From Utricularia gibba (lineage: Eukaryota > Streptophyta > Magnoliopsida > Lamiales > Lentibulariaceae): a stretch of 31,585 bases of DNA. The notes under the pieces were generated by a model that was not told the DNA's origin, did not search any database, and saw only the letters and a list, made by a program, of their open reading frames with translations. Both the position numbers and the translations under genes were made by a program. Position 1 is the stretch's first letter. Every line of letters starts with the position of its first letter. Positions 1,127 to 31,585 of this stretch are shown piece after piece. The stretch lies in the NCBI GenBank assembly GCA_002189035.1, contig NEEC01000157.1, positions 1 through 31,585 on the forward strand, given 5' to 3'.

Positions 1127-1139
1127 CCCACTACAAACC

Positions 1140-2270: not shown

Positions 2271-3688
2271 ATGTGGGATTTCAGAGTTTTTTTGATATGC
2301 TGCGTATCGGTACCGGGATTCGCGTACCTGTTTTGGCTCTTCCTCCACCGCACTGCCCTCATCTACGTCCTCAAGAAAGGGTGCGAACGCCTCCTTGATT
2401 TCGTGCACGTTCACCAACGCTTCAGAGTCCCGGAGTTCGAGGACGAGGACGATCGCCGTGAGAATCACCTGTACAGAATCGTTTCCCTCTACCTCAACGC
2501 CCTCCATTCTCTGGAGGACTCCGACTACGCGAACCTGAAATCTGGGAAGAAGTCAAATGAGATTCTTATATCGCCGGAGGGCAATCAGGCCATCGACGAC
2601 GTTTTCCTCGGAGCTCGCGTTTCGTGGGTGAATCAGATCGTCAGGGACGACAGAAACTGCGTCGTTTCAAGGAGCTTTGTTCTCAGGATCAGGAAGAAGG
2701 ATAGACGGAGGATTTTGCAGGCGTATCTCCAGCATATACATTCGGTTTCAGGGGATATCGAGCAGAGGGGAAGCAGCTGAAGATTTACAATAACCTTGAT
2801 GGGAAATGGAGACCAGCGCCGTTCAATCATCCGCGAGTTTCGATTCGCTTGTTATTGATCCTGAGGTGAAGGCCAAAATCAAGAACGACCTTGAGACGTT
2901 TGTGAAATCAGAGCAGAGTTACCAAAATCAGGGCGCGTTTGGAAGCGGAGTTACCTTCTATGTGGCCCTCCTGGTACCGGAAAATCTAGCTTCGTCGCCG
3001 CGACGGCGAAGCAGCTCAATTACGACCTGTATAATCTCAATTTGTGGCAAGTATCCGATGACGCTGATCTCTACGCGCTTCTGTTGCGAACCAGAAGCAA
3101 ATCGGTGGTCGTCGTCGAGGATTTAGATCTGTATCTCAAGGGTCAACCACGGATTTCGTTCTCCGGACTACTGAATTTCATGGATGGTATACTGAATTTA
3201 CAGGATGAGAAGATCACGATCTTCACGATGAACTCGAAGGACGGAATCGATTCGGCGTTGCTCCGGCCGGGGAGAATCGATGTCCATATATGCTTTCCGC
3301 TCTGCGATTTCAATTCCTTCAAAAATCTGGCTAGCAATTATCTAGGCGTAAAGGAGCACAAATTGTTCCCCCAGGTCGAGGAGATCTTTCTGAGCGGCGC
3401 CACCATAAGCGCTGCGGAGGTCAGCGAATTGATGCTGGTTAATCGGAACTCACCCCGAGCACTCAGATCTGTGATCCTAGCTTTACAATCGAACAGCAGG
3501 AATTCCGGAAAATCTATCTCGAGGATCAGCAGCACCCACGTTCGTCGACGGCGGCCGAGATCACCGGCGGTAAAGATCCTACTCCACCGAAAGATCAGTT
3601 CCGTAAGCTGTACGATCGTCTAGGTTTGAAAAGTTGCTCAAAAATTGAACCGTCGGATATAGTCGAGCCAGAGACGATCGTACGGTGA
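2271..3688 (+). CDS. Plant BCS1-like AAA-ATPase (At2g46620 type), frame broken at four points
   Basis: Single-exon member of the plant AAA-ATPase/BCS1-like family, usually membrane-anchored ATPases; the exact role is unknown. The ATG at 2271 gives the family-typical MW start, followed by a hydrophobic N-terminal segment (about residues 5-27) and the AAA-associated N domain (HVHQRFRVPEF...EDSDYANL...GKKSNEI). Next come Walker A (GPPGTGKSS, about 2966-2992), Walker B (VVVVEDLD, about 3105-3128), LLRPGRID, and a C-terminal FRKLYDRLGLK motif near 3600. Reading it through needs four one-base restorations: near 2770 (GGGG run), near 2831, near 2941 (TTT run) and between about 3520 and 3545. All four are losses. 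With them the length is 473 codons plus stop, about the family length. There are no in-frame nonsense codons. It is either a recent pseudogene or a correct gene with consensus errors; I favour the latter. Confidence 0.85.
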
Positions 3689-3939
3689 AAAAGATGTTCA
3701 ATGGTTGCTATACTTGTTTAGCAGTTGGTACTTCAAAGCTGTGTTCATTTATTCACACTTTTTTATTTTTACCTTATTATTATTATTTTTTAATAGGCCT
3801 GTGTAGTGTGTACATTGATATTTGTTATTTATTTTTAGAATTAAAATGTTATAATTCATTGGGCCTTGTATTGGGTTTGGCATTTTTAACCCAACGCCTC
3901 AACATGGGCTCACAGAAGCGGTTAATGGGCCCATAAGTA

Positions 3940-4560
3940 GTTAGTTACCAAGGAGTCCAAGAATCGGTTCGTTCCTTGGGAGAATCGGCTTTATGCCCTG
4001 GCTCAGGCGACGGGTGTGATTCTTTTCAAGAGGCTGTTCAAGATGCCCGTTGAAAGTTTCCGTATTGTTCCTGATTATTCAAATGCAATATTACTGTTGT
4101 CGCGAACTTGTGGTGGAAGGGTGCACTGAAGGTGTTTGATGAAATTCCTGAAGGTTATGATATAGTAGAGATTCAGCATAGAAGGTGAATGGTGAGATAT
4201 TTACCAGGAGCTGATTCGGTTGTTCAGGGTTAAGGAAGAAATATGGAGGAAGGTGATTGTCTGTTGTCAACTGAAGTGATCTACGAATCATGATTATCAG
4301 GTTTCTGCAGACTGTATTTTTCTCAATGTGAGATCTTCTGCTCCAGATAAAGCTGTTACTGATCATGGGTGTGAGGGAAATGCTGAATTTGGATTGAAAT
4401 TTTATGACTTTAAATTGATTCTGGTTTGAGGTTTCAGACTCTTTGGTTAGCCTAAGAAGATTTATTAGGCCATGGGCGCCGACGCCTGGGGTTTGCATCA
4501 ATCCTGAAATGGTGGAACATTTGGATGATCATGTCTTAGTTACTACACACCGTACATGAA
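3940..4560 (+). other. Coding-like relic, family unknown
   Basis: From about 3955 to 4195 the plus strand has codon-like composition (a peptide containing PWENRLYALAQATGVILFK and, after a frame change near 4110, ALKVFDEIPEG). It soon hits stops in all frames. I do not recognise a family; the second part loosely resembles a PPR-type helix but is too short to call. The rest up to 4560 shows nothing I can support. It could be a decayed gene fragment or an unannotated UTR. Confidence 0.2.
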
Positions 4561-4931
4561 TTAAACTTTATATTGCTCGTCCAGCTCCTCCCGAATGGCC
4601 TTCTCAAGCCAAGTTACAGCATCCTCCATCATCTCTGGGCTCAACCTGATCATGAGGACGCAGAACTCCATCTCGTTGAGCACACCATCGCCATCGAGAT
4701 CCCCTTCTTCGACCATCGCCACAGCATCCTCATGGGTCATCCCCTGCAGACCCAGATGCTGGCAGTTCTCTGCAGACTAGCGGATGTGATGAGCCTAAGC
4801 CCTGTCCTCGGATCCGCCAGCATCCGGAACCCAGCGCAGAGCTCCTCCATGAAGGCTTCCACGTCCAGCTTCTCCGCCATCACCGGAAGTAAGTCCTCGT
4901 ACACTTCTTCCATTCCTTCCATTTGTTCCAT
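4561..4931 (-). CDS. PBP1/KIC-like single EF-hand calcium-binding protein
   Basis: Small plant calcium sensor of the PINOID-binding PBP1 / KIC group. Arabidopsis members bind a protein kinase or a kinesin in a Ca2+-dependent way. The N-terminal half reads VYEDLLPVMAEKLDVEAF then EELCAGFRML, as in the family. The single EF-hand loop at residues about 78-89 is DLDGDGVLNEME, with acidic ligands at positions 1, 3, 5 and 12, followed by FCVLMIRLSPEMMEDA. A one-base loss near 4757-4763 separates the N-terminal frame from the EF-hand frame. Restoring it gives 123 residues, about the family length. The start is taken at 4931 (MEQMEGMEE); a TATA box lies about 90 bases upstream. No intron, as usual for this family. 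Confidence 0.85.
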
Positions 4932-5020
4932 GTGAAAACGCTGACAGAATAGCAGTGATGGCAATACAACTAGTTCGTTGTGTTCCTGCTCCTTGCTCTT
5001 GTGGGGGATGGGGTAGTATT

Positions 5021-5029
5021 CTATTTATA
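5021..5029 (-). promoter_or_regulatory. TATA box of the PBP1/KIC-like gene
   Basis: On the minus strand the sequence TATAAATAG lies about 90 bases upstream of the ATG at 4931, with an ACGT core directly upstream of it. Position and sequence fit a core plant promoter. Confidence 0.6.
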
Positions 5030-5239
5030 CGTGGGAGACATGCGTCGCCATGGATTTCAACGGAGCTAGTTTAAATGGCGAAATTACATCAGTATGAATG
5101 AAGAAGGTGAACGGAACCTTCCTCGCATGCCTTAGATACGGCAACGTGGTGATTGATGCTGTGCAGGGGAAGGAAGCCAACTCACCCACCCTCCAACACA
5201 TGGTTGATGATGGTGGCGAGGTTGCTAAGAACCTTCCTG

Positions 5240-6430
5240 GAACCTTCCTATGAATAGTACTTACCCCGTGTGATGATATTTTGGTATTTTATGGCGTTAA
5301 AAAATGAAAATATTAGTAGCTTTCATGACTTGTACGATACGGTCGCGGTAAATAGATCAGAAGCAACTCGGAAATTGTATTCTCAATCTTTATTGGTCAA
5401 GTTACATGTGGTCCATTTTTATAGAAGTCGCCTAAAACTATAGGGCATGCATCTAGTGGTCTTCAGTATTTTAAAAACTGGTTAAATTTATTTTTAATTT
5501 AATTATGAAATTGACTTTATTTTTTAATAATTGATCATATTCAATAATTTTTTAAATATATCAATTATTATTTAAATGAATAAATTCACTACTCGTACCT
5601 AGTTACAAGTTTAGACTGAATTAAAGGACGATATTTCATATTAGTTTTAATTGACTTTATATAATATTATCTATTTAAAACATATATAATTCATAAGTTT
5701 ACATTATCCTCTTTTAGGAAAAATGTTTTGTATAAGATTAAATATTATTTTATTTAAACACATCTCTCTTATCCGTCCATAAAGAATATGAAATATCCTC
5801 ACTAGATCCATGTGTTTAAGTTTACTAGCTAATCATATCTTACGATTTCTATTGTAGCATACATAGAGTAGTCTATTTCCACAATTTTGAGTAAGTCAAA
5901 ATTGTTTTTAAAAGTGGATCTAACTTATGTTTTATGAGTTTTGGTTTTATTAATTTTAAAGAAAAATCCAAATGGATTCAATAATCAGAAATATTAAAAA
6001 TATGTTTAGATTCAATTAATAAAAAAATTTTTGTTATTTTTTCTTATGATACATATGTTAAAATAAATTTTAATTGGATAAAATTGATAAAAGTAAAATT
6101 TTATTTTTTATTATAATTAAATTTGAAAATTTTAAATTTATTCTAATTGATTCTGGAGTCCAACTATAATTTTAAAACGTCAGTTCAACTTATTTATAAG
6201 ATTATCACACGTTGAATATTTTAATAAAAAACAAAACGGGGCCCCATCAAACAATGGGTCAGCAGGATGGTTAATATTTAACATATAATAAAAAATAAAA
6301 AGCCTGGAGGGAGAAGAAGAGGGGGAGCCGAAGCGTCGCCCTCGTTTGCGAGTGTTTGATTCCAGTTCTGCAGTTGTTGAGCTAATCCATTTCTTTGGAT
6401 CCAAGAAAAGTATTGGGGTGTTTCCTGGGG
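5240..6430. other. AT-rich intergenic DNA
   Basis: Very AT-rich with frequent stops in every frame, no recognisable gene or RNA. It contains the promoter side of both flanking genes, which point away from each other. I see no clear terminal repeats. Confidence 0.5.
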
Positions 6431-6515
6431 GTTGTTTCCAGTTGAAGCATTTGTCGGTCGTTGCATTTTCGCCGTTTTTCAACTGAGATTTGTGAATCTC
6501 TTCAGCGGAAAAGGT

Positions 6516-7469
6516 ATGGGTCTTCTCTCCAACGAATTGGGGAGAAATGAGATCAAGCCTGGAGATCATATCTACACTTACAGGGCGGTAATTGCCTACT
6601 CACATCACGGTTAGCGATGTTTTTCAGATTTTCTTTTTTTTTTCTTCTTCGCGATCTGGGCTTTTCTGAATTTTCATCCCTGTGTAGGAATGTAAGGATG
6701 CGGGTATCTCTCTTTAGGTTAAATGTAGTGCCCATCTCTTATTTCTGTCTAGTTTTCCTGTGTTTGTCCTCAATTAGGGCTGATCCGTTTGCAAGTTGCC
6801 TTCTTTGTTGATCTGCTTGGAGATCTATCCAGTAAAATCTTGTTCCACTCACATTGTGCAGGCATCTATGTCGGTGGTGGCAAAGTTGTTCATTTCACCC
6901 GAATCGACACTTTTAACACCACCGGTGATCAACCTTCAGAATGCCCATATTTTCCAGACTGTGGATTCAAGCATCAAAACAGCAGCGTTCTCATTTCCTG
7001 TCTAGACTGCTTCCTCCATGAAGGATCTCTTTATCGCTTCGAATACGGAGTTGCCCCACCAGTTTTCATTGCAAAACTTCGCGGAGGAACATGCACCATG
7101 GCCCCATCAGATGATGGCGAAACAGTTGTTCATCGAGCCATGTATTTGCTTCGAAATGGATTCGGCAAGTACCATATTTTCCAAAACAACTGCGAAGACT
7201 TCGCACTATACTGCAAAACCGGACTGCTGATATCTGAACGTGCTGGCATTGGCACAAGTGGGCAAGCTTCAACCTTGATCGGTGCACCTCTAGCAGCCAT
7301 GCTTTCTTCTCCTTTGAAAAGGCTGATGCCAAGTCCGATTGCGGTGGCCACCGTTTCTACAGGGATGTATTGTCTGAGCCGATATGCAACGGATATCGGC
7401 GTCAGGAGCGACGTAGTGCAGGTAGATGTGGAAGATCTGGCTTCCTGGGAGATTGAGAATCGAAGCTGA
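6516..7469 (+). CDS. LRAT/NC-domain protein
   Basis: Two exons, 6516-6609 and 6862-7469, joined by a GT-AG intron that splits the Gly codon of HHG; 233 residues. The start MGLLSNE followed by [12 protein letters not shown] is typical of plant NC (LRAT-like, NlpC/P60 superfamily) proteins. [15 protein letters not shown] (residues 29-43) carries the putative active-site His, and [10 protein letters not shown] carries the putative nucleophile Cys142. These match the HxGIY...NCEHF pattern of lecithin:retinol acyltransferase. The C-terminal quarter has two weakly hydrophobic stretches (about 175-205) that may associate with membrane. Plant members are poorly characterised; a thioester-type acyltransferase or hydrolase activity is expected from the fold. 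The frame is intact. Confidence 0.9.
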
Positions 7470-8667: not shown

Positions 8668-10120
8668 AGCTGCTTGGCAGAGAGCCGCGAGTAGGTGCTT
8701 TGTTCAAGAAGATGCAAAGAGAGCTCCAAAATTAGCATGCTGCTCGTCGCTTGCTCCTTTCCAAGAACCTGAGTTGAGGCCTGCAGATGCAGCCAGTGGC
8801 CAAGAAATTCCTCCTGGTGATTTTTCGCGGTTGGATCCGGAACCTGTGTACTGTAATTTATCAACTAGGTCGCAGTGGTGGATGCATCTGCAGCAAGGTT
8901 ATGGACACCAGAGCAGATTAATGGATGAGAAACTTACTGTGATGAGTGACTGTGATGAAACTTCCGATTTAACAGAAGCTTCACAAGACTTTTTAGTCAA
9001 TGAAACTGACTTTGTGATTGTTGATCAGACTTCTGCCGAATCTGTCCTTAGTTCCCAGTTTTTAGTTAAAGAAGAAAAATTCAATTCATTTGACACCTGT
9101 GGTACCAGCATTGATGGGAAGAAAGCTCATGATGGAGTTAAAGCTGTCGAGAGTACTCTTGGTAATTACTTTGATCCAGAATCTTGTGAAAAGAGTGGTC
9201 CATGGTGGCAGAGTGCAGGTGCTGAAGAACTGGCGTTTTTAGTTGCACAAAGATCTCGTGGCATGATTGAGAACTGTGACCTCCCATCACCTCTGACTGC
9301 TTGTGGAAAGACTTCTCGAAGTTCTGAAACAATCTCTTCTTGCCGTCATAGAACTTTCACTCTGTCAAGACATCAAGATCTGGTTCAGTCTCCCAGCCAC
9401 TTGCGTTTTAGTGATCCTTTGACGGCTGATGTAGCTGGCCATAGTGCCTACCCAGCACGGAGATCACCATCAGAAAGTGCATATTGGTAAAATGATCTGG
9501 TTATCTTCGAGCTTGTAATCTATGTTGTTTATCTTCTAATTAATTCATCATGCTTTTAATGCATTATATTACAAAATCATGCACCTTTAGCTTTTTTAAA
9601 AATTGTGTTGTGCTTAGTTTCCTTATTTCTCCATCATTCTTCTGTTTATAGCTCTGCCCTTGGAGACGTTGGGAGGATGGATGGAGATACCTCACAGATA
9701 CTGGATGCTCTGCATCATTCTCAAACACGTGCCAGAGAGTCAGATAACATTGCAAAACAAGCTTGTGAGGAGAAAGAGCACATTATCAAGCTTGTGCTGA
9801 GACAAGCATCTCATCTCTTTGCCTATAAGCAGTGGCTCCGACTTTTGCAGCTGGAGAACAATACATATTTGCTGGCTCTACGCAGTAAGGGTCAGCAAGC
9901 ATTTCCAGGATCTCCATTACTTCCACCTTGGAAACCAATGAGGAGGAGGTCAAGGATCAATACGAGCCGGAGAAAGCCAGACGATAGATCTGGCAGATGT
10001 TGTGGCATTGGCAAGTATGCTGTGGTTTTCGTGGTGGGGTTGGGTCTGGTTGGTGTTGGCTTGATGCTTGGATGGGGCATGGCATGGATGCTCCTCCCTG
10101 GTGATCGATCAAGTTTGTGA
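8648..10120 (+). CDS. Plant protein of unknown function, C-terminal membrane segment
   Basis: Exons 8648-9486 and 9652-10120 (GT-AG intron) give 435 residues with an intact frame. The N-terminus (AEARAAWQRAASRCFVQEDA, then KRAPKLACC) is a conserved block I associate with a plant family annotated as UCP012943-like (e.g. Arabidopsis At4g25170); that assignment is from memory and tentative. WWMHLQQGYG follows at about residues 75-85, then an acidic, Ser-rich low-complexity middle. Exon 2 encodes a helical segment (ILDALHHSQTRARESDNIAK) and LRQASHLFAYKQWLRLL, then a basic stretch (MRRRSRINTSRRK). A single hydrophobic segment at about residues 401-428 ends seven residues before the stop, as in tail-anchored proteins. 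Function unknown. Exon 2 is duplicated at 21057-21500. Confidence 0.85.
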
Positions 10121-10788
10121 TAGTGCACGTCCAACATGCTATGCTGTGCCTGTACCATGTAGTAGTGTATATGTGATGAATGCCATTTGTGTTCCTATCA
10201 AGTGTGCCTGTACAGAAGTTGGAAATTGAAAGCTTAAGCGAAGCTGGATAGTTCATGAATCATTGACATAATTTCTTGATTATATGGACAGGGGAACTGT
10301 TAGTGTAGGATGTTTATGCATGTTGATACATGAAAGAAGGCTTTTTCTCCTGTTTTTTTTTTTTTCTTCATCTCCCAGGTAAAGACTTTAGCAGAGCAGC
10401 CGTACCAGGGAGACAGATGGATGGACCTGTCCGAGCATCGGGCCATAACAATATACTTTGGATATTCAACTATATATAACGGTTTCGTCTACAATTTGAT
10501 TATCTTTCCTTGTAAATATCTTACAGATACGCATGATTTGCTTCAAGGAAAAAACTACAATGATTCCATGGACAAGAAGACTATGGAGTAGGTCCCATGG
10601 CACGGCATTCTGTTACAGTTTCTTTCCACGTTTTCCACCTGCTGTTTCTGTCCTGTGTAAAAACGGTTACATCACTTGTTGAAAAGGGAAAAACAGAAAG
10701 TTTTGATTCGTATTTGAAGTTAAGCTTTCCGCTTCTTTAAAATGATGCTAAGCTTGCAGTGAAAAAGGGGGCATTTCCCATCAAGTCA
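10121..10788. other. 3' flank of the membrane-protein gene and bHLH-1 promoter
   Basis: No gene. Contains the 3' UTR, a poly-T run near 10351 and the bHLH-1 promoter. The whole stretch is repeated at about 21480-22145. Confidence 0.5.
10471..10479 (+). promoter_or_regulatory. TATA box of bHLH-1
   Basis: TATATATAA about 310 bases before the bHLH-1 ATG. The duplicated copy at 21835-21843 reads TATAAATAA, so the element is kept in both copies. Confidence 0.5.
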
Positions 10789-12067
10789 ATGGACCCAAGG
10801 AAGGTGAAAAAGCTGAAGAGCATGCTTAAGGAAACTTCTGCTGCTGCTGCTGCTTCTGCTCTTGAAATGGAGGCATTTAACGTAGGGAATGCAAGTTTTC
10901 ATGAGTCAAATCAGATGAGCACAGGCTTTGATGCTGAAAACCATTATCTTTTTCTTCAACACCACAGTATTGCAGCCGCTCCACCTGATTTGCTGCCTCC
11001 CACTTGTTCAATCCCCTTTTCAAACTCACCTCTAAATTATTCCAGTTTCCTGGGACACTTCAGCCCACCTGAATCTCATACCGACGATCCGGGTAACGTC
11101 GGCTATGACTCTTTGCTGTCTTTGAATCAACCATCTTCGCTGAGGGAGCCGTTTCCTTGTGGAGGAGAACCAAAGGTTGAATCTTTGTTTGGTTTTCTGG
11201 ACGGCAGTGTTGGTGCTGGAGCATTGTATCCTAGTCAAAATTTTGAGTTCTTCGAGTTCACTGCTGGAGAAACAGGTAGCCCCTGTCACATGAAAGATGG
11301 GAAAGTGACCAAATGTTCAAGCAATGAAAAGCAGAGAAGAGTCTCCATGAATGACAAGTTCAAGGATTTGAGTAAACTGATACCAAATCCCACTAAGGTA
11401 ATACTAATAGCCAAGGCTGTGTATCTGGAATCAACTCAAAAGTTGGCACAAAACAAGGCTATATGTAACTAATGATTTCTTCTTCTTCGTCGTCTTCTTT
11501 TTTTCTTTTACTTGGATTCAAGAATGATCAAGCCACCATTCTGGCGGACGCTATTGACTACATAAATGAGCTACAGAGGACAGTAGCTGAGCTCAAACTC
11601 CTTGCTGAGAAGAAGAGAAGTGCTAAAGAGAAGAGAATCAAGAGTCCCAAGATTGAAACTGATGATGTTCGCCAAGAGGATGGACGTGCCATGAGAACCT
11701 CATGGCTTCAGAGGAAATCTAAGAACACTGAGATTGATGTTCGAATCATAGATGATGAAGTTACTGTGAAGCTTGTGCAACAGAGGGCAATCAACAGCCT
11801 TGTATATGTTTCAAAGGTTCTTGATGAGCTTCACCTTGATCTTCATCATGTTGCTGGAGGCGTCATAGGTGATTATTACAGCTTTTTGTTCAACTCAAAG
11901 GTAAAACTAGTGTTCACGTTTTCAGAAAAGATAGACATCATAATGAAACAATTTTCTTCGCTGTTTTGTAGATCTGTGAAGGTTCTATTGTGTATGCAAC
12001 TGCACTGGCAAACAAGCTGATTGAAGCTGTGGATCTGCAATATGCAGCAGCAACATCAAGCTTATGA
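10789..12067 (+). CDS. bHLH transcription factor, bHLH10/89/91 (tapetal) type, copy 1
   Basis: Three exons, 10789-11397, 11523-11900 and 11972-12067, all GT-AG and phase 0; 360 residues, frame intact. The basic region/helix 1 starts at about residue 175 (NEKQRRVSMNDKF). It keeps Glu and the RR pair of the E-box-binding pattern but has Lys where most family members have Arg (ER to EK), plus an unusual CSSN before it. Helix 2 is ATILADAIDYINELQRTV. The C-terminal ACT-like part (SWLQRKSKNTEIDVRIIDDE, then LDLHHVAGGVIGDYYSF) is diagnostic of Arabidopsis bHLH10/89/91 and rice EAT1/DTD relatives, which act in the tapetum during pollen development. The start is the ATG at 10789, followed by a Lys-rich segment and an alanine run encoded by GCT repeats. 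A second bHLH lies 258 bases downstream on the same strand. Confidence 0.92.
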
Positions 12068-13538: not shown

Positions 13539-13896
13539 GTATGTAAAATCCCGATATACTTGCAGATTATAGTGAATCTTTCGAACCCTTTGTCCCAAAT
13601 TCTCACAAAGAGTAGCTTGGCAACTGTTGACACAAGGCCAAACAAAGAAGCAGAAACAAAGAATCGAGTTCTGATAGAGCCTGGATCCCAAATCTATGTA
13701 GCGAGCCATGGATTCAAGTACTGTAACCTTTGAACTGATATTTCAAAACCAACGAAAATCTGTTCACAAAAAAAGTATAAGCTATTCCAGCACGATCTCG
13801 TTATAGACATCTAATTACAGCTGAGTTAGCCAATCGACAAGCATACACAGAACTACCAATTAATTGCCATAAACGTCTGCAACCTCAGACCCTTGT
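13539..13896. other. Convergent 3' flanks
   Basis: Between the bHLH-2 stop and the 3' end of the minus-strand DUF212 gene. Nothing beyond UTR-like sequence is seen; an 87-codon minus-strand open frame here has no family features. Confidence 0.5.
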
Positions 13897-14990
13897 TTAC
13901 AAGACTCGAGAGAGGCAGATCATACAGCATACCCAAGCTACGCCAATACCAAGCATGGCACCAGCAAAAACTTGAGAGGAGTGTGGCCCAGAAGCTCCTT
14001 GAGCTTTCTTTGGCTTATTGGATGCCACTGAAACAAGTCCTCAACTATAAGATTGAGTACCTGCATGAATTCAACAGATTATGACATAAATTGTCATACA
14101 AACAAAACATGCCCCCAGTCGATGTACTTTCCTAAAAGCCACCTCACATTACTACATTCAATTGATGTCCTGTTTATGCAAAGAAGATATCAAAGGGAAA
14201 GCCCAATAAAAAACTTGTACTAAAGCTGGTAAAAGTAAGATGATTACAAAATATTACCTAATTTCAGTCTCAAAAAGTGATCTTTAAAGGGAAGACTAAC
14301 GCACAAAAAAAGCAAGTACCTCAGCTTGCATCCCTGCGTGGCGCCGTACACCAGTAGCGTCGTACATGACAATCATACTAAACCAGAGACAAACTGGAAA
14401 TAAAGAATCGGCTACACCATGACAAATCGCCACAGAAGTAGTCATTGCAGTGCATAGAGCAGAATGAGAAGAAGGCATTCCACCAGATGCAAACATAATC
14501 CTAAAATCCCATTTCCTCTCCACCCAAAAATTCAAGAATACTTTAATAGTTTGTGCAATAGCCCACGCACATAATCCAGAAACAAAGTCGGGTTTGCAAC
14601 AAGTGTAGACATGAAAGGACTTATGTTAACCTTAGCAGCACCCGTGGCAGCAATAATCGCCGACGGAAGAGCATCATTCTGAAGAAAGCCCGTTTCTTGA
14701 ACATGGAGCACGGCGGCCCACTTCTGAGTTGAGGATTTCACTGCGTAGTCACTAACTTTCTGGACAAATGGGATTACATACGAAATGGGTTTTACAAGGG
14801 AACCGCAATTGGTCCATAAGGAATCGGGGTTGAGCGCATTCATAGCATTAACGCAGATAGAGGAGAATCTCTTAAACCTCAAAACCGAAAACTTGGACCA
14901 TCCGAGAGAAGTAGACCCAGGCGAAGCCGCTAATCGCAGGCTCTTGAAAGGAAAATGGATTAGAATTATAGAATCCATGAAAACATACAT
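13897..14990 (-). CDS. DUF212 / acid phosphatase-vanadium haloperoxidase-related protein
   Basis: Minus-strand gene with exons 14990-14320 and 14060 to 13897 around a GT-AG intron. The hallmark is SGGMPSSHSALCTAM, then MIVMYDATGVRRHAG (exon 1) and ISQRKLKELLGHTPL (exon 2), as in plant DUF212 proteins (Arabidopsis At3g12685/At3g61770 group), thought to be organellar membrane proteins of unclear activity. The region before the motif has a Ser/Arg-rich N-terminus that could be a transit peptide, then hydrophobic segments. Two one-base losses break the frame, both in T runs on the coding strand: near 14572 (before SGLCAWAIAQTIKVFLNF) and near 13965 (after GHTPLK). Without the second correction the protein stops at 13938; with it the family-like tail (FAGAMLGIGVA) ends at 13897. 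Probably a real gene with sequencing errors. Confidence 0.85.
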
Positions 14991-15181
14991 CAATTGAACA
15001 AGAGGTGAGCTTCAATCTTCATTCAAACCAACGAAAGAAGCAAGATCAGTAGCGCGCCGCACAGGCATACCGGAGAAAGGACAACCATTTCCTTTCACGG
15101 ACGTGAAAACAATCAAATATAGACATCACACATCAGAAAAAAAAAAAAAATTAGAGCGACGGCGGCACAAGTTGAGGCATC
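14991..15181. other. 5' flank of DUF212 gene, ends at OSC repeat unit
   Basis: Upstream of the DUF212 gene, with an A14 run near 15137-15150. A block starting about 15170 (GTTGAGGCAT then CTTCGGCCCCTGCAAGG) begins the repeat shared by the three OSC units. Confidence 0.5.
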
Positions 15182-15937
15182 CTTCGGCCCCTGCAAGGAA
15201 TATGCCATCCCAGTGAGATTTATCGTCTCGTAAACAATTATTCAAATTATGTGTAATATTGTAATATGTAAAATTTATACCTAAATTTCCACATAAACTA
15301 TTATTTAATTAACTAATATATGTATGTCAGCTTTGTATAACTATACTAATCACATATTTACTTTTTTAGCATATACATAAATGGAGAAATGGAGAGAGAG
15401 TAAGTTAATTATATCTATATCATTTATATGTAATTAAAATTTTATTCTTGAACATTAAATATTATATATAAGTAACTTATTTAATTATACTATACTTACA
15501 TATACTAATGCAATATTACTAAATTTAATTCAATAATCTTTATAAAAAATTGAAATTAAAAATATTAATATTTTTTAAATTATCTTTATTTTTCGTAATA
15601 TTTTTTCAATGAATTTTTCAAGAAATAAAACGAGACAGAATATCTTGTTTGGGCCACAACAGCCACAGAAACTGGGCCAATTAGGGAAGCCATCGAGCTA
15701 ATGGGCTACCGCCACCCCTCATACATTTGTGGCCGGCCCAAATTGGTGAATGATTTTTGTTGATTTTAACTTGTCCAGCTGCGTCTCTGCTATCGCAGAA
15801 TGCATGCTGGTAAAGGGATGACCATGGGGTCAAAAGGCATTCATCTCACGGTCGAACTGTCAGCAGAGCATTCAATATCGGTGTTGGTAGTTGGGATAGG
15901 ATCAACATTTGGAGATCTGATGCACTGCACAGAAATT

Positions 15938-17120
15938 TATTTAAATAAGTATGTCAGAAATTTCCATTTTTAAAATATCTGTAATTTACTTTTCTTTTTT
16001 GAAAATACCTGTCATTTTAATATTAGTGTTTTAATGCCCATTTTTATTTTTATTGAAAAGAATGTTATTGCATATTAACATAAATTAGTTTACTTCAAAA
16101 TTATTATTAATCAAAAAATTATTTTAATGGATTACTCTTAATGACAAAAAGAATAATAATTAAAAACATAGAAAACATAAATTGTAATATAAAACATAAA
16201 TAAAATAATAGTTAAATGTTTATGAATTAATATACAAAAGTAAATCATTGATGTTTTAAATTTAATTTTTAATTAAAATAATTTAAATTAAATTAAATTA
16301 TAGATATAACAATGAATTTATATTAAAAAAAGATAAAAAAACAATACAAATATTTTCATAATAACAAAATATTAATAGATAATTTTATAAAAACTTTTGT
16401 CGATACAGTTATTTTAACAAAAAGGCCTGAATTATTTGTCCAAAAAGTATTTAAATGGATTAATTTTGTCAACAAAGAAAAAATAATGATTAGAGAAATA
16501 AAAAATCCAAAATTATAATATTACCATGAATTTAGATGAATATTAAAAATTTATTAATGTAAATATGACTATATTTTTACTCACCTACTACTAACAAAAC
16601 AAAAAAATATGATTTTAAAACTTTTGTATTTTGAAAAGATAAAAGTTAATATATCAAAAAACATTCAAACACAAAAACTCTTAATAAATTAAAATATTAT
16701 CACATTTAGTAAACAATTCATGTATCATAAATTTTTTAAATGTTAAAAAAATAAATAAATAACATGAAAATATTACAAAATTTCGAATATTTTTTCAAAT
16801 ATATTTTTATTAATAAATAAACAAACATATATAAAATGTATAATTACAATATTTAATTAAATTTATAAATTTCTATTGATTAAATATAAAAATAAATTGA
16901 AAATGCTTAAAATTTGTTTTCAATTTTAAAAAAATTACATCTATTTTTTTATAATTACATATTCATCTAAAACATAATAAAAAAATATTCTAGGAAAACA
17001 CAGGTATTTTTTTATAATAACAGATTTTTTTACAAATTTATGTAAAAGAATAAAATAAAATAAAGTCATTTAAGTTATAAAAAAAAAAACATATATTTTG
17101 ATATATTTTTTATAGGCATA
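15938..17120. mobile_element. AT-rich insertion in OSC1 promoter, probable non-autonomous DNA element
   Basis: Comparison with unit 2 shows that after GATGCACTGCA (ends 15935) about 1.2 kb of extremely AT-rich, non-coding DNA replaces different sequence. Similarity resumes at the ACCTTGAAAA block (17145). Near the ends there is an imperfect inverted repeat: ATATCTGTAATTT and AAAATACCTGTCA at 15977-16013 face CAGGTATTTTTTT and AATAACAGATTTT at 17001-17026. No transposase. It may be a MITE-like element or a more complex replacement; I cannot find clear target duplications. Confidence 0.4.
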
Positions 17121-17510: not shown

Positions 17511-20500
17511 ATGTGGAGACTCAGAGTTGCTCAGGGAGACAATAATCCTTACCTCTACACAACTAACAACTTTGTGGGAAGACAGACGTGGACCTTCGAT
17601 GAGGACTACGGCACACCGGAGCTCCGGGAAGCAGTGGAGAAGGCCCGAAGTGACTTTTGGGAGAATCGCCACACTGTGAAGGCAAACGGTGATCTCCTAT
17701 GGCGGACGCAGGTATTTGCGTTGGAAAATGCATGCTGATCAAGATGCCAACTTATATACCATGCTGAACTGTGCAGTATTTGCACGAGAGTAACTTTCGG
17801 CAAAGGATACAGCAAGTGAGGGTGGGCGACGATGAAGATGTGAGTCATGAGAAAGCCACCGCCGCTCTACGACGTGGGGTTCATTATTTCGCGGCGTTGC
17901 AAGCCAGCGACGGCCACTGGCCCGCAGAAAACGCCGGCCCGCTGTACTTTCTACCGCCACTGGTAAAGCATTCGCCTTTGCCTGTTTAAGAAATAAAGCG
18001 TTCCAATTTTTTCAACCTTGCCACTTAAGCCATGCAGGTGATGGCCTTGTACATGATGGGATGCCTCAACACAGTTTTCTCACCCCAACACTGCAGAGAG
18101 ATTCTTCGTTATCTGTACTGCCACCAGGTAAACTAAGTAATATTTTGGGCAACAACTAAAATGAGATGAGAATTGGAGCAAACGCGAAAAAAAAGTAAAA
18201 ACATACTTGAGAATTGATGACAGAATGAAGATGGAGGATGGGGGTTCCATGTAGCAGGTCACAGCATGATGTTCTGCACTGCACTAAGTTACCTTTGCAT
18301 GAGGATTCTGGGCGTAGACAGCAACAATACCTCCTGCATCAAAGCTAGGAAGTGGATCATGGACCACGGAACGGTTAAGGCCATCCCTTCGTGGGGCAAG
18401 ACTTATCTATCTGTCTGTACTCTCTCTCAACTCTAAACTTTCAGAGATTGAGACTGGTTAAACATATACATGATTGTTCCTATTTTCAGATAATCGGGTT
18501 GTATGATTGGTCCGGTACTAACCCGATGCCACCTGAATTCTGGTTGTTCCCTACATATCTCCCAATACATCCAGGTCCTCTTCTGTCTGTTTTCCTTTTT
18601 CATGATGCAGGTTGACATCATAGATCTTATTTCAAATGACAGCCAAAATGATGCCTTATTGTCGTATGGTGTACATGCCGATGTCCTACTTGTATGGCAA
18701 GAGATTTGTAGCTCCAATCACTCCTCTGATCTTAGAACTCAGACAAGAGTTATATGATGAGCCTTACGAGAAGATTGATTGGAGAAGCCTGCGAAAAGTA
18801 TGCGCAAAGGTTAGTCATTGATAATGAATTACACTTAATGAAGAGGAAGGAGCAAGATCTGAAAACCTGTATTCTCTGGCAGGAGGATTTGTATTATGCA
18901 CATGGATTTGTACAGGACTTCATTTGGGATGCTTGCTATTTAATTGCTGAGCCTCTACTGTCTCGCTGGCCTTTCATTAAGCTACGGGACAAAGCTCTGC
19001 AAGTTACCATGAAACACGTTCATTATGAAGATGAAAACAGTAGATACATTACCATAGGCTGCATAGAGAAGGCACTTTGCTTGATGGCTTGTTGGGTTGA
19101 GGATCCTCAGGGGGAGTACGTCAAGAAACACCTCGCCCGCATCCCCGATTACATGTGGGTAGCGGAGGATGGCATGAAGATGCAGGTAATGTACCAGTGC
19201 GATGATTTATTCAGTTATTATAAACAAAAATGCTCACAATCCATGATCTAGAACTGAGATAACTGATCTTGTGTTCATAAACAGACTTTTGGCAGTCAAC
19301 TGTGGGATGCATCTTTTGCCATACAAGCATTATTGGAATGTGATCTCACTGGTGAGATAGGAGAGACCTTAAAGAGGGGTCATGAGTTCATAAAGAACTC
19401 TCAGGTTGCTACTTCATTACAAATGTTCTAGCCACGCTGCAAATCAATAGATATATCAATAGCTACTCATATGCAGGTGAAGGATAATCCTTCAGGTGAT
19501 TTCCGGAGTATGTACCGGCATATTTCTAGAGGATCATGGACATTTTCTGATCAAGATCATGGATGGCCAGTCTCCGATTGCACCGCAGAGGGTTTGAAGG
19601 TACACTTGCAATCCATTGGTATTTTGATTCTTGATGGAAAAGACATCCCTTTGAGTTTCTATTTCTCAGTGTTGCCTTCTCTTCTCCATGATGTCACCGG
19701 AAATCGTTGGAGACAAGATGGAAGACGTGAAACTCCACGATGCTGTCAATATAATCATGTATCTGCAAGTGAGACTTTTTAACAGACACGCTTTGGGCAT
19801 AATCCATGCAATTTGTCCATCTCACGGTTTACAACTGCAGAGCAAAAATGGTGGCTTTCCAGCTTGGGAACCAGCAGGGGCATCCAAGTGGCTTGAGGTA
19901 GGTTCCCACATCCACATTCCAAACCGATTGAACTTAATCCGAAAAAAAAACACATTTTGCAGTTGCTGAATCCTTCGGAGTTTTTCGAAGATAACGTTGT
20001 GGAACACGAGTACGTGGAATGCACCGCTGCATCAATCCAGGCCCTAGTTCTGTTCAAGAAACTGCATCCCCAACACCTTAATAAAGAAATCGAGATCGCC
20101 ATCAAGAAAGCTGATGAATATATCAAGAGTATTCAAAGACCGATGGCTCATGGTAAAAGAACTTCAACACTTACGATTCCAATCACCATCATCGATAGCA
20201 TATTGTTTTGCAAGGTACGGGAGTTGGGGAGTTTGCTTCACCTACGGCACATGGTTCGCACTCTCCGGACTATCGCCGCCGGCAATACATACCAGAATTG
20301 CTCCGCCATCCGTCGAGGAGTTAATTTTCTCTTAAGCACCCAGAGGGACGACGGCGGCTGGGGAGAATCCTACCTTTCTTGCCCAAAGAAGGTAAGTTCT
20401 GGAAAATAAATAAATAAATAATATATTCAAACGATTAATGAATTAAAATTATTAAATAACAGGAGTACGTGGCACTGGAAGGAAATCGCTCAAACTTGGT

Positions 20501-20882
20501 CCAAACATCATGGGCCATGTTGGGCCTCATGCATTCGGGCCAGGTCAATCATCAGCCCAACCCAACAGTCCATTTGTTGTTATATTAAATTAAAAAAAGT
20601 ATTATTTATTCCAGGCACAGAGAGACATCACCCCACTCAACCGTGCAGCAAGGCTTCTGATCAACGCCCAGTTGGAGGATGGAGATTTCCCCCAGCAGGT
20701 AACTCAATCAACGTTACTGCACTCTTGAGAATGGAATTTTCAGGAACTTACTGAGTCATTGAGAATGGAATTTTCAGGAACTTACTGGAGCCTTCATGAG
20801 AAACTGCATTGCCCACTACCCACTCTATCGGAATGTATTCCCGATCTGGGCTCTTGCCGTGTACCGTAAATGTATTGGCTGA
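17511..20882 (+). CDS. 2,3-oxidosqualene cyclase OSC1 (beta-amyrin/lupeol synthase group), two frame breaks
   Basis: Cyclises 2,3-oxidosqualene to a triterpene, at the ER membrane by family knowledge. Sixteen exons with GT-AG borders: 17511-17711, 17777-17962, 18038-18127, 18224-18412, 18490-18574, 18643-18809, 18883-19185, 19285-19404, 19477-19599, 19670-19768, 19841-19897, 19963-20152, 20215-20391, 20463-20543, 20615-20698, 20778-20882. The length is 752 residues once two one-base losses are restored: exon 12 near 20140 (CCG for CCCG) and exon 13 near 20273 (ATCGCC for ATCTGCC). Start [15 protein letters not shown] and NNFVGRQTW mark the dammarenyl-type OSC group. Catalytic Asp is in SDCTAE (residue about 481); QW motifs include ASDGHW, QRPDGSW and QRDDGGW. 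The MWCYCR motif reads MMPYCR (Met254, Pro255), and WQVSDCTAE reads [12 protein letters not shown]2 is 4 kb downstream. Confidence 0.93.
20727..20787 (+). repeat. 34-base tandem duplication at the last OSC1 splice acceptor
   Basis: A 34-base period: the block GAGAATGGAATTTTCAGGAA at 20727 recurs at 20761. Each copy has its own AG acceptor and the start of exon 16. Only the second (exon from 20778) keeps the frame. OSC2 has a single copy. Confidence 0.85.
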
Positions 20883-20975: not shown

Positions 20976-21500
20976 TATTACAAAATCATGCACCTCTAGC
21001 TTTCTTAAAAAATGTCTTGTGCTTGGTTTCCTTATTTCTCTATCATTCTTCTGCTTATAGCTCTGCCCTTGGAGACGTTGGAGGATGGATGGAGATACCT
21101 CACGGATACTAGATGCTCTGCATCATTCTCAAACACGTGCCAGAGAGTCCGATAACATTGCAAAACAAGCTTTTCCTGAGACAAGCATCTCATCTCTTTG
21201 CCTATAAGCAGTGGCTCCGACTTTTGAAGCTGGAAAACAATACATATTTGCTGGCTCTACGCAGTAAGAGTCATCAAGCATTTCCAGGATCTCCATTACT
21301 TCCACCTTGGAAACCAATGAGGAGGAGGTCAAGGATCAATACGAGCCGGAAAAAACCCGACCATAGATCTGGTGGATGTTGTGGCATCGGTAAGTATGCT
21401 GTGGTTTTCGTGGTGGGGTTGGGTATCGTTGGTGTCGGGTTGATGCTCTGATGGGGCATGCCATGGATGCTCCTCCCTGGTGATCGATCAAGTTTTTTAG
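20976..21500 (+). pseudogene. Copy of exon 2 of the 8648-10120 gene
   Basis: Matches the end of intron 1 and all of exon 2 of the membrane-anchored protein gene (20976 aligns with 9567). The splice acceptor and SALGDVG coding start are kept. One G is lost near 21080 (GTTGGAGG for GTTGGGAGG) and about 30 bases are missing near 21172. The C-terminal membrane segment ends early at a TGA (21449-21451) by substitution and loss. No exon 1, so it is a pseudogene fragment. By eye it is about 95% identical to the source over the longest ungapped stretch. Confidence 0.9.
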
Positions 21501-21834
21501 TAGTGCACGAATGCTGTGCCTGTACCATGTAGTAGTGTACATGCGATGAATGCCATTTGTGTTCTTATTAAGTGTGCCTGTACAGAAGTTGGAAATTGAA
21601 AGCTTAAGCGAAGCTGTATAGTTTATGAATCATCGACATAATTTCTTGACTATATGGGCAGGGGCACTGTTAGTGTAGGATGCATATGCATGTTGATACA
21701 TGAAAGAAGGCTTCTTCTCCTGTTTTTTCTTCATTTCCCAGGTAAAGACTCTAGCAGAGTATCTGGTATCAGGGAGACAGTTGGATGGACCTGTCAGAGC
21801 ATCGGAACATAACAATATACCATGAATATTCAAC

Positions 21835-21843
21835 TATAAATAA
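21835..21843 (+). promoter_or_regulatory. TATA box kept in the duplicated bHLH-1 promoter
   Basis: TATAAATAA at the position equivalent to the bHLH-1 TATA box (10471-10479). The flanking promoter sequence is also conserved, so the truncated copy may still be transcribed. Confidence 0.4.
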
Positions 21844-22145
21844 CGGTTTCGTCGACAATTTGATTAACTTCTCTTGTAAATGTCTTTACAGGTGCGCATG
21901 AATTGCTTCAAGGAAAAAACTACAATGATTCCATGAACAAGAAGACTGTGGAGTAGGTTCCCATGGCACGGCATTCTGATGCAGTTTCCACGTTTCCCTT
22001 CTGCTGTTTCTGTCCTGTGTTAAAACGGTTACATCACTTGTTGAAAAGCGAAAAACATAAAGCTTTGATTCTCATTTTAAGGTTACCGCTTCCTTAAAAT
22101 GATGCCAAGCTTGCAGGGAAAAAGGGAGCGTTTACCATCAAGTCA

Positions 22146-22440
22146 ATGGACCCAAGGAAGGTGAAAAAGCTGAAGAGCATGCTTAAGGAAAACTTCTGCT
22201 GCTGCTTCTGTTCTTGAAATGGAGGCGTTTACTGTAGGGAATGCAAGTTTTCATGAATCACATCAGATGAGCACAGGCTTTGATCCTGAGAACCAGTATC
22301 TTTTTCTTCATCATCACAGTATTGCTGCCGCTCCACCTGATTTGCTGCCTCCCACTTGTTCAATCCCCTTTTCAAACTCACCTCTAAGTTGTTCCAGTTT
22401 CCTGGGACACTTCAGTCCACCTGAATCGCATGCCGAAGAT
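22146..22440 (+). pseudogene. Truncated copy of bHLH-1
   Basis: Aligns with the first 300 bases of bHLH-1 exon 1 (22146 ATG matches 10789; 22440 matches 11088). An extra A after MLKE shifts the frame into a run of Cys codons and a stop at 22215, giving a 23-residue product. The rest of the exon is readable in the original frame (MEAFTVGNASF and PPDLLPPTCSIPFS) until it stops abruptly where OSC unit 2 begins. The whole bHLH domain is absent. Confidence 0.92.
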
Positions 22441-24913: not shown

Positions 24914-27900
24914 ATGTGGAGACTCAAAGTTGCTCAGGGAGACAATAATCCTTACCTCTACACAACTAACAACTTTGTAGGAAGACAGACGTGGATTTTC
25001 GATGAGGACTACGGCACACCGGAGCTCCGGGAAGCAGTGGAGAAGGCAAGAAGTAACTTTTGGGAGAATCGCCACCGTGTGAAGGCCAACAGTGATCTCC
25101 TATGGCGGATGCAGGTAATTGCGTTGGAAAATTTTCTGAACAGGTGATCATTGCCAACTTATATAGCATGCTGAACTGTGCAGTCTTTGCATGAGAGAAA
25201 GTTTCGGCAAAGGATACAGCAAGTGAGGGTGGGTGACGATGAAGATGTGAGTCATGAGAAAGCCACCGCCGCTCTCCGACGTGGGGTTCATTTTTTGGCG
25301 GCGTTGCAAGCCAGCGACGGCCACTGGCCCGCGGAAAACGCCGGTCCACTCTACTTTCTACCGCCACTGGTAAAGCATTCGCCTTTGCCTGTTTAAGAAA
25401 TAAAGAGTTCCAGTTTTTTCAACCTTGCCACTTAAGCCATGCAGGTGATGGCCTTGAACATGATGGGATGCCTCAACACAGTTTTCTCACCCCAACACTG
25501 CAGAGAGATTCTTCGTTATCTGTACTGCCACCAGGTAAACTAAGTAATATTTTGGGCAACAACTAAAATGAGATGAAAATTGGAGCAAACGCGAAAAAAA
25601 AGTAAAAACATACTTGAGAATTGATGACAGAATGAAGATGGAGGATGGGGTTCCATGTAGCAGGTCACAGCATGATGTTCTGCACTGCACTAAGTTACCT
25701 TTGCATGAGGATTCTGGGCGTAGACAACAAGAATAGCGCTTGTGTCAAAGCTAGGAAGTGGATCATGGACCACGGAACGGTTAAGGCCATTCCTTCTTGG
25801 GCAAGACTTATCTATCGGTACTCTCTCTCAACTCTAGACTTTCAGAGATTGAGACTAGTGAAACATGCACATAATTGTTCCTATTTTCAGATAATCGGGT
25901 TGTATGATTGGTCCGGTACTAACCCGATGCCACCTGAATTCTGGTTGTTCCCTTCATATCTCCCAATGCATCCAGGTCCTCTTCTGTCTGTTTTCCTTTT
26001 TCATGATGCAGGTTGACATCATATATCTTATTTCAAATGACAGCCAAAATGATGTGTTATTGTCGTACGGTTTACATGCCGATGTCCTACTTGTATGGCA
26101 AGAGATTTGTAGCTCCAATCACTCCTCTGATCTTAGAACTCAGACAAGAGTTATATGATGAGCCTTACGAAAAGATTGATTGGAGAAGCCTGCGAAAAGT
26201 ATGCGCAAAGGTTAGTCATTGATAATGAGTTATACTTAATGAAGAGGAAGGAGCAAGATCTGAAAACCTGTATGCTATGGCAGGAGGATCTGTATTATGC
26301 GCATGGATTTGTACAGGACTTCATTTGGGATGCTTGCTATGTAATTGCAGAGCCTCTACTTTCTCGCTGGCCTTTCAATAAGTTGAGGGACAAAGCTCTG
26401 CAAGTTACCATGAAACACGTTCATTATGAAGATGAAAACAGTAGATACATTACCATAGGCTGCATAGAGAAGGCACTTTGCTTGATGGCTTGTTGGGTTG
26501 AGGATCCTCAGGGGGAGTACGTGAAGAAACACCTCGCCCGCATCCCCGATTACATGTGGGTAGCGGAGGATGGCATGAAGATGCAGGTAATGTACCAGTG
26601 CGATGATTTATTCAGTTATTATAAACAAAGATGCTCACAATCCATGATCTAGAACTGAGATAACTGATCTTGTGTTCATAAACAGACTTTTGGCAGTCAA
26701 CTGTGGGATGCATCTTTTGCCATACAAGCATTATTGGAATGTGATCTCACTGGTGAGATAGGAGAGACCTTAAAGAGGGGTCATGAGTTCATAAAGAAAT
26801 CTCAGGTTGCTACTTCATTACAAATGTTCTAGTCACGCTGCAAATCAACAGATATATCAATAGCTACTCACATGCAGGTAAAGGATAATCCTTCAGGTGA
26901 TTTCCGGAGTATGTACCGGCATATTTCTAGAGGATCATGGACATTTTCTGATCAAGATCAGGGATGGGGAGTCTCCGATTGCACCGCAGAGGGTTTGAAG
27001 GTACACTTGCAATCCATTGGTATCTTGATTCTTGATGGAAAAGACATCTATTTGATCTTCTCTTTCTCAGTGTTGCCTTCTCTTCTCCATGATGTCACCG
27101 GAAATCGTTGGAGACAAGCTAGAAGACGTGAAACTCCACGATGCTGTCAATATGATCATGTATTTGCAAGTGAGACTTTTAACAAACACGCTTTGGGCAT
27201 AATCCATTCGATTTTGTCCCATCTCACGGTTGATAACTGCAGAGCAAAAATGGCGGCGTTCCGGTTTGGGAGCCAGCAGGGGCATCAAAGTGGCTTGAGG
27301 TAGGTTCGTACATCCACATTCCAAGCCGATTAAACTTCATCCGAAAAAAAAAAGAACACATTTTGCAGTTGCTGAATCCTTCGGAGTTTTACGAAGATAT
27401 CGTTGTGGAACACGAGTGCGTGGAATGCACAGCTGCATCAATCCAGGCCCTAGTTCTGTTCAAGAAACTGCACCCCCACCACCTTAATAAAGAAATCGGG
27501 ATATCCATCAAGAAAGCCGTTGAATACATCAAGATCATTCAAAGACCCGATGGCTCATGGTAAAAGAACTTCGACACTTACGATTCCAATCACCATAATC
27601 GATGGCATATTGTTTTGCAAGGTACGGGAGTTGGGCAGTTTGCTTCACCTACGGCGCATGGTTCGCACTCTCCGGACTATCTGCCGCCGGCAATACATAT
27701 CAGAATTGCTCCGCCATCCGTCGAGGAGTTAATTTTCTCTTAAGCACCCAGAGGGACGACGGCGGCTGGGGAGAATCCTACCTTTCTTGCCCAAAGAAGG
27801 TAAGTTCTGGAAAATAAATAAATAAATAATATATTCAAACGATTAATGAATTAAAATTATTGAATAACAGGAGTACGTGGCACTGGAAGGAAATCGCTCA

Positions 27901-28269
27901 AACTTGGTCCAAACATCATGGGCCATGTTGGGCCTCATGCATTCGGGCCAGGTCAATCATCAGCCCAACCCAACAGTCCATTTGTTGTTATATTAAATTA
28001 AAAAAAGTATTATTTATTCCAGGCACAGAGAGACATCACCCCACTCAACCGTGCAGCAAGGCTTCTGATCAACGCCCAGTTGGAGGATGGAGATTTCCCC
28101 CAGCAGGTAACTAAATCAACGTTTACTGCACTCTTGATCCAGTAACTGAGAATGGAAGTTTCAGGAACTTTCTGGAGCCTTCATGAGAAACTGCATTCTG
28201 CACTACCCACTCTATCGGAATGTGTTCCCTATCTGGGCTCTTGCCATGTACCGTAAATGTATTGGCTGA
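24914..28269 (+). CDS. 2,3-oxidosqualene cyclase OSC2 (beta-amyrin/lupeol synthase group), two frame breaks in exon 4
   Basis: Paralogue of OSC1 with the same 16 exons: 24914-25114, 25184-25369, 25445-25534, 25631-25817, 25891-25975, 26044-26210, 26284-26586, 26686-26805, 26878-27000, 27071-27169, 27243-27299, 27369-27559, 27622-27799, 27871-27951, 28023-28106, 28165-28269. Both breaks are in exon 4, each one G short in a G run: near 25646 (GGGG for GGGGG) and near 25799 (GGG for GGGG). Everywhere else the frame is open; corrected length 752 residues. The specificity motif is MMCYCR (Met254, Cys kept). The region before the catalytic Asp reads [11 protein letters not shown], where family members usually have [19 protein letters not shown] replaces OSC1 CFTYGTWF. 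By eye exon 7 differs from OSC1 at about ten of 303 bases and introns also align, so the duplication is recent. Unlike OSC1 it needs no repair in its second half. Confidence 0.93.
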
Positions 28270-30661: not shown

Positions 30662-31585
30662 TTAATTCGATGGTCCTGGTGGGTCGAAGTTCAGGTTTTG
30701 TGGACGTTCTTGTATAGAGGCACGTGGCGGTTGAGGAATCGGCTCGAAGTTGTGTCCATATGGCACATCCACAGATGATCTATGTGGTTGTGAATGACTT
30801 GGAGTTGTGTCTTCATCCACATGCATATATCCCGTTTTCACATGTCTATGTCTTCCTCTATCCATGTTCATTGGAAAGCGTGTACTACGATGGCGTCCAC
30901 GACGAACATGTCTAGCACGTTCAGGATCAACACGAAGAACCACTAGTGGTGAGGGCCAATGTTTCTCAGTTCTGAGTGGCTGAAATTGATTTCAATATGC
31001 ATTCAATAGATGCCGTAGAAGGTGGATTGGATTGACTAATGTTAGTGGATCGATCCCAAGAAGCTTGCAAGCCTATTCATGCAAAACAATTTGTATATAA
31101 TTAATATTGTATTTAAAAATATAAAGCAAGTTGTGGTTTGAGAAATTACTTGTTGTGCATGAGAGCACGGTATACCATAATTTTGCCATTTGGTACAAGT
31201 GCAAGTTTGATCTTTGATTTTAACGAAACACACATTCTCCAAGCCATTCTTCCGAATAGTTGTGACTCGAACCACCTTATGTCGACGATCATAAACCTCA
31301 ACATTTGTATATGGGATTGGTCTATCCCATCGCTTTAGTAGGAGTTCAGCTTCTTTGCTGAATACTTTGTTTTGACGCTCCATATTAAGAACCTCTTCCA
31401 AACCTTCATACATATATTTTTTGCACCGTGTGAATGTTGCCTACGGGAGGTATACACATATTAGATTAAAATATTTTATTTAAAATGATGTTAATATAAT
31501 ACCTGAGCTAATGGTGTTAATGGAAGATGTCGTGCACCCAAAAGCACACAGTTTATTCCTTCTACTTGATTGGTTGTCATAGTAC
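30662..31585 (-). pseudogene. MuDR/MULE transposase, C-terminal part, with an in-frame stop
   Basis: Minus-strand exons: 31585 (edge) to about 31503 (TTNQVEGINCVLLGARHLPL), about 31441 to 31131, and about 31074 to 30662. Exon 2 ends in the SWIM zinc finger CTCTKWQNYGIPCSHA (CxC...CxH), diagnostic of plant MULE transposases. The last exon has CKLLGIDPLTLVNPIH, then a TGA at 30994-30992, and after it the same frame continues (FQPLRTEKHWPSPLVVLRVD, RRGRHRSTRFPMNMD), the typical basic tail of these proteins. The stop cuts off the tail only. The N-terminal catalytic region lies outside the window. Likely defective, or readable if the stop is a consensus error. Confidence 0.8.

Follow-up and report, generated by a model that had tools for sequence, protein, structure and literature searches.

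The two cyclase genes of the window (the whole stretch of Utricularia gibba DNA analysed, 31,585 bases, which is the entire contig C237) belong to a tandem array of three genes with the features of non-sterol oxidosqualene cyclases (OSCs), and all three carry Met in place of the Trp of the MWCYCR motif. In plant triterpene synthases, whether this motif carries Trp or Leu is the classic determinant of the product. The plant OSC family itself is known, and what is new is, at the level of sequence, an OSC array in which Met is fixed at the product-deciding Trp. In our main reading, to which we give a probability of about 0.45, the second gene of the window (OSC2) would be expected to make lupeol or a lupeol/beta-amyrin mixture, and the other two genes of the array probably differ from it.

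The array and its motif site

The window duplicates part of the 3.5-Mb contig C304 of the same assembly (100,091,633 bases in 516 contigs), on the opposite strand and with 99.5-99.8% identity over three long stretches. The C304 locus is fuller, with three tandem OSC genes, A (= OSC1), B (= OSC2) and C, which are 93.9-94.5% identical pairwise at the protein level; gene C, the third member of the array, lies at about 2812.7-2816.2 kb of C304 and is outside the genes of the window. The exon borders of all array genes follow an alignment-based model (alignment to OSC2 and the C304 copies), built without RNA. The features to which we refer below are as follows.

17511-20882, + strand: OSC1 (gene A), OSC gene of 16 model exons, its frame broken on C237 in exons 12 and 13 (alignment to OSC2 and the C304 copies)
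18398-18420, + strand: region of the exon-4 donor in OSC1, where both contigs that carry gene A have the same insertion of 4 bases (exon model)
18643-18809, + strand: OSC1 exon 6, with MMPYCR near its start (exon model)
18648-18665, + strand: MMPYCR motif of OSC1, Met at the Trp257/259 site and Pro at the next Cys (sequence, codons)
19576-19590, + strand: DCTAE catalytic motif of OSC1 (sequence)
19993-19995, + strand: Asn at the MiFRS Ile555 position, private to gene A, in an exon that falls within the inverted stretch of C304 (window contig only)
20811-20813, + strand: Ala in place of Leu734, a change private to gene A that C304 also shows (alignment)
24914-28269, + strand: OSC2 (gene B), OSC gene of 16 model exons, frame-broken in exon 4 on C237, with an intact 752-aa frame on C304 (exon model)
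26044-26210, + strand: OSC2 exon 6, with MMCYCR near its start (exon model)
26049-26066, + strand: MMCYCR motif of OSC2 (sequence, codons)
26977-26991, + strand: DCTAE catalytic motif of OSC2 (sequence)

The original prediction had read MMPYCR in OSC1 and MMCYCR in OSC2, and both strings are indeed present in the translated window, in frame and in a conserved OSC exon, as KMMPYCR at 18645-18665 and KMMCYCR at 26046-26066 (both + strand). The codons are ATG ATG CCT TAT TGT CGT in OSC1 and ATG ATG TGT TAT TGT CGT in OSC2, and in the exon model both motifs stand near the 5' end of a 167-base exon, with AG at the acceptor and GT at the donor. A chance string can be ruled out, as the site is homologous and lies within a conserved exon of a long conserved gene; the Met of gene B aligns with Trp230 of human lanosterol synthase (gene B residues 96-748 aligned; 1W6K numbering as in Table 1 of PMC6678101). 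Gene A reads MMPYCR on both C237 and C304, gene B reads MMCYCR on both, and gene C also reads MMCYCR, so that Met occupies the Trp site in 3/3 array genes against 0/5 of the other OSC loci found, all of which have Trp. Since Met is common to all three, the change is older than the array. From Trp TGG to Met ATG two base changes are needed, through either Leu TTG or Arg AGG, and the Leu route would pass through the state of the listed lupeol synthases.

The Pro at the next position is private to gene A, and the loss of the motif Cys in OSC1 is confirmed by the CCT codon on C237 and C304. Sequencing or assembly error could also produce an MMPYCR string, and there are single-base length differences between the contigs nearby. 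However, the CCT codon on both contigs makes a one-contig error improbable, to the point that we reject it, and the change is a two-base substitution that leaves the length unaltered, unlike the length changes around it; error of any kind thus seems exceedingly improbable.

Five further OSC loci were found in the genome, four in tandem on contig C413 (MWCYCR) and one of the sterol type on C375 (MWCHCR), which has His at the motif Tyr position; the proteins of both contigs are projections from tblastn matches, with gaps. The C413 array (L005, L006, L007 and L008; C413 1912-1976 kb) combines MWCYCR with Thr263 and is partly mixed-amyrin-like, namely at Thr263 and Thr677 (4/4) and Gln375 (3/4) and not at 354, 617 and 715. 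As assembled, in-frame stops occur in the tblastn matches of two of them, L005 (in the last exon) and L008 (in the exon with the DGHWPAEN stretch). As these four copies are the only other non-sterol OSCs found in the genome, the array bears on the triterpenes that the plant can make.

Met at this site had been called unusual, and this holds: in Table 1 of PMC4346913 it stands at the Trp position in 0 of 22 OSCs, and the next Cys is present in 22/22. The strings MMCYCR and MMPYCR had no match in the literature searched, and a literature search on mutant names found no published Trp-to-Met mutant at the OSC site. For Utricularia gibba and oxidosqualene cyclase no paper was found, and Utricularia was unnamed among the triterpene matches listed. 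Ordinary enzymes with Met had been named as the finding that would speak against the prediction, and one candidate is reported, Iris tectorum ItOSC6, cited in PMC10850208 with the motif LMVLAR and hence Met at the Trp position.

Several side observations concern the contigs themselves. The left end of the window also matches C304 2843949-2850623 and the 29.7-kb contig C242, so that the assembly has window 1-6600 in three copies (on C237, C242 and C304), and the small contigs thus seem to be redundant with the large one. Window 13757-16699 (~2.9 kb) is absent from the matching C304 stretch, where both flanks join at 2836791; it contains a minus-strand ORF at 14532-14993, and its last 0.7 kb has copies elsewhere in the genome at 81-84%. 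Another minus-strand ORF, at 31042-31413, presumably resembles the end of a plant transposase that has the SWIM-type zinc finger. Between OSC1 and OSC2, window 20976-22440 repeats in part the neighbouring genes at 9567-11088 (via C304 matches); we take the repeated piece to comprise the end of one gene and the 5' part of a bHLH-like-looking gene; it seems that the array-forming duplication carried gene fragments along. A gene cluster with a cytochrome P450 found no support, the nearest on C304 among the matches listed (92 of 269 candidates scored) starting at 2965199, ~129 kb from the array.

Family, intactness and constraint

On C304, genes B and C each give, over 16 model exons, a 752-aa protein with a single terminal stop; exon 4 of gene B has neither of the two single-base length changes there that are seen in the window OSC2. 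The gene B protein has both squalene/hopene cyclase domains above the cut-off (PF13243, 196 bits; PF13249, 148 bits) and can be aligned over its whole length to the plant OSC in PDB entry 8j5z (1182 bits; 62.9% identity over 750 positions). With both domains in gene B and DCTAE in OSC1, OSC2 and gene C, the array genes qualify as plant OSCs by sequence, and Tyr rather than His in MxCxCR places A, B and C outside the sterol type.

Gene A is in a different state. The window copy has one single-base length change each in exons 12 and 13, and the C304 copy has such changes in exons 2, 6 and 15 as well as an inversion of ~520 bases (L003 9238-9757, that is, C304 2833238-2833757). The inverted bases are closer to OSC2 (99.2%) than to OSC1 (91.1%), and the stretch is either a misassembly or an inverted conversion tract. 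No intact gene A frame is found on C237 or C304 under the exon model, both copies being frame-broken. Across the two copies there are five single-base breaks; the one in exon 12 falls in the inverted stretch of C304, which offers no between-contig comparison, and the four comparable ones each occur on a single contig (4/4). Over the comparable exons, the C237 and C304 copies of gene A differ at 4 of 1297 bases.

These breaks raise the possibility that gene A is a young pseudogene whose MMPYCR reflects drift, with B and C as working genes. Beyond the frame breaks on both contigs and the 0.5-kb inversion, such a reading draws on the 4-base insertion at the exon-4 donor, which both contigs share, and on the amino acid changes private to gene A, 8/18 of which fall where the other two copies match 8j5z, compared with 5/22 in B and 6/18 in C. 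However, the comparable breaks are each confined to one contig, and the insertion creates two possible donors, of which one breaks the frame and the other keeps it. Moreover, S250T, one of the eight changes, occurs on the window contig and is absent from C304, and the private-branch dN/dS of gene A (0.33) does not exceed that of gene C (0.41), that of gene B being 0.26; pairwise values are 0.27 for B-C, 0.28 for A-B and 0.35 for A-C. All of these values and the private-change counts cover 708 of 752 codons and 707 comparable positions, gene A codons past the exon 12 and 13 length changes being excluded. The apparent constraint in all three lineages makes a long-dead gene A unlikely, and it may be compatible with recent decay. 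A Cys-to-Pro change is also compatible with activity in one apple enzyme, MdOSC1 (PMC10850208). Taken together, we regard a decaying gene A as possible though doubtful.

Pocket and class positions

Pocket positions were taken from the docking list of PMC5118845 and class positions from the residue table of PMC4346913; position 137 of the latter was excluded from the counts since the sterol-type control did not read the tabled Thr (index off), and the counterpart of MiFRS Val410 carries an uncertain index. Genes A, B and C all retain the motif Tyr, W417, F473, the Asp and Cys of DCTAE, W534, W612, F728 and Y736. Private to gene A are Pro258, Ile555 to Asn, Tyr552 to Phe and Leu734 to Ala, so that its 18 private changes include 3 of the 16 listed pocket positions, Pro258 not being listed (hypergeometric P 0.006, uncorrected across three genes); the private changes of B and C touch 0/16. 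Pro258 and Ala734 are found on both contigs, and the changes at 552 and 555 only in the window. The title of one beta-amyrin synthase study names Leu734 together with Tyr736. Gene C has Phe413 (the Phe of the MQSF stretch) changed to Ile, and Gly at 254. The prediction that the two window copies would differ from each other gains support from these private changes, which lie putatively near the pocket.

At the class-diagnostic positions, A and B match the listed beta-amyrin synthases at 8/10 usable sites, missing at 317 and 373, and many of these beta-amyrin-type positions are also common to lupeol synthases. The Trp257 (259 in Panax) expected of a beta-amyrin synthase is Met in 3/3 array genes, and of the lupeol pair Leu257 and Gly254 the former is Met in all three and the latter is present in gene C only. 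Val263, Cys375 and Ser677 in A, B and C, and not the asterid mixed-amyrin Thr263, Gln375 and Thr677, rule out the mixed (alpha/beta) amyrin class, and the friedelin-type Leu two residues before DCTAE is likewise rejected, the residue being Val. Where cycloartenol synthases have Gly-Tyr-Asn, the array has two residues, as expected of the pentacyclic Ser-Phe, but the letters are TF in A, TF in B and SI in C. In a tree of 624 columns with a single plant reference (8j5z), the C413 copies and, as outgroup, the sterol-type gene, the join of the array has a support of 53 and site patterns of 14/14/15, so that the array found no firm place and the tree was set aside.

It could be that Met is simply tolerated and that the array genes are ordinary beta-amyrin or mixed-amyrin synthases, the oleanyl cation being held by other pocket residues. 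The retained aromatic residues W417, F473, W534, W612, F728 and Y736 are consistent with this, as are the Iris OSC with Met, reported as a pentacyclic triterpene synthase (PMC10850208), and the mixed-amyrin synthases in the PMC4346913 table, which have Phe (apple, loquat) or Leu (pea, MLCYCR) at the site. The latter imply that the site is not the sole determinant. However, in published mutants of beta-amyrin synthases lupeol joins the products when the Trp becomes Leu or Phe, and the array has no mixed-amyrin residues at 263, 375 and 677; we consider such ordinary products unlikely.

Expected products and known counterparts

According to PMC10850208, the Trp of beta-amyrin synthases stabilises the oleanyl cation, and in the lupeol synthase of Olea the Leu may do the same for the lupenyl cation. 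A Trp-to-Phe change in a Pulsatilla beta-amyrin synthase added lupeol, and a natural Phe enzyme in the same report makes mainly lupeol (PMC9995806). Trp-to-Leu gave an equal mixture with lupeol added in Eleutherococcus, is cited as giving mainly lupeol in Panax, and abolished the product in a cycloartenol synthase (PMC12268154). The original prediction had held that swapping this residue changes the product, and published mutants do so, but the link is not strict, as the pea mixed-amyrin synthase with Leu illustrates. At the next Cys, saturation mutagenesis of apple MdOSC1 yielded a C258P mutant that makes only alpha-amyrin, with no overall gain in titre at the site. In Olea OEW none of the replacements increased lupeol, and the six that are listed as giving no lupeol do not include Pro; in licorice GgbAS V, A and S brought an increase, unlike most replacements (all as described in PMC10850208). 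The apple mutant implies that an enzyme can stay active with Pro at this position and that, in at least one case, Pro can shift the ratio of products.

The array enzymes would take oxidosqualene to pentacyclic products by way of the dammarenyl, baccharenyl and lupenyl cations. A flexible, aliphatic Met would replace the Trp held to stabilise the oleanyl cation, and lupenyl deprotonation could then compete, which is why lupeol, alone or with beta-amyrin, is what we would expect of gene B. Gene A (Pro258, Ala734, Asn555) and gene C (Ile413, Gly254) probably have another product spectrum or activity, and our best reading is that both have shifted further than B, or that gene A is decaying. The claim that these enzymes may make a different triterpene is thus plausible, given the unusual Met and the published product shifts, for B and C as found on C304, and for A only if it is intact.

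A further-reaching alternative is that the array makes other skeletons, for example of the germanicol or taraxasterol type or early-stopped tetracyclic, the departure being greatest in A and C. The three private pocket changes of gene A and the missing aromatic at 413 in gene C could point in this direction, but B and C have no private change at the listed pocket positions, and two of the three in gene A are seen on the window contig alone, so that we hold it to be quite improbable. As a speculative sequence of events, to which we would give similarly little credit, Trp-to-Met may have come first, followed by the pocket changes of A (Pro258, Ala734, Asn555) and C (Ile413, Gly254), giving different skeletons of which at least one would lie outside lupeol and amyrin, with Pro258 serving in nature as the product switch known from apple mutagenesis. 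The interest of the array lies in Met as a little-studied third state at the Trp/Leu switch, and three natural enzymes, ~94% identical, with Met in common and few pocket differences, offer a compact test of shared product control.

Among known enzymes, Iris tectorum ItOSC6, described as a characterised OSC in PMC10850208, has Met at the Trp position as in the array, but the remainder of its motif is non-canonical. With the plant beta-amyrin synthases (MWCYCR; Panax PNY, Euphorbia EtAS) the array shares the motif Tyr, DCTAE, the six aromatic pocket residues named above, and Val263, His354, Cys375, Val614, Thr617, Ser677 and Glu715, several of which are common to other classes; Ala254 is shared by A and B. 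It differs from them in having Met for the motif Trp, Gly at 317 and Ala at 373, as well as Pro258 in gene A and Ile413 and Gly254 in gene C. The plant lupeol synthases (MLCYCR; Olea OEW) are likewise aliphatic at the Trp position, and the five listed in the PMC4346913 table have Leu257 (5/5), Gly254 (5/5), the latter as in gene C, and a GCQ triplet (4/5), whereas the array has Met, GSQ and, in A and B, Ala254, which speaks against the lupeol reading. Finally, apple MdOSC1 C258P has Pro at the position where OSC1 has it naturally, preceded by another non-Trp residue (Phe). It is an engineered mutant of a mixed-amyrin synthase, whereas OSC1 has a preceding Met and further changes, and the Pro258 of gene A is in this respect the natural counterpart of the engineered C258P.
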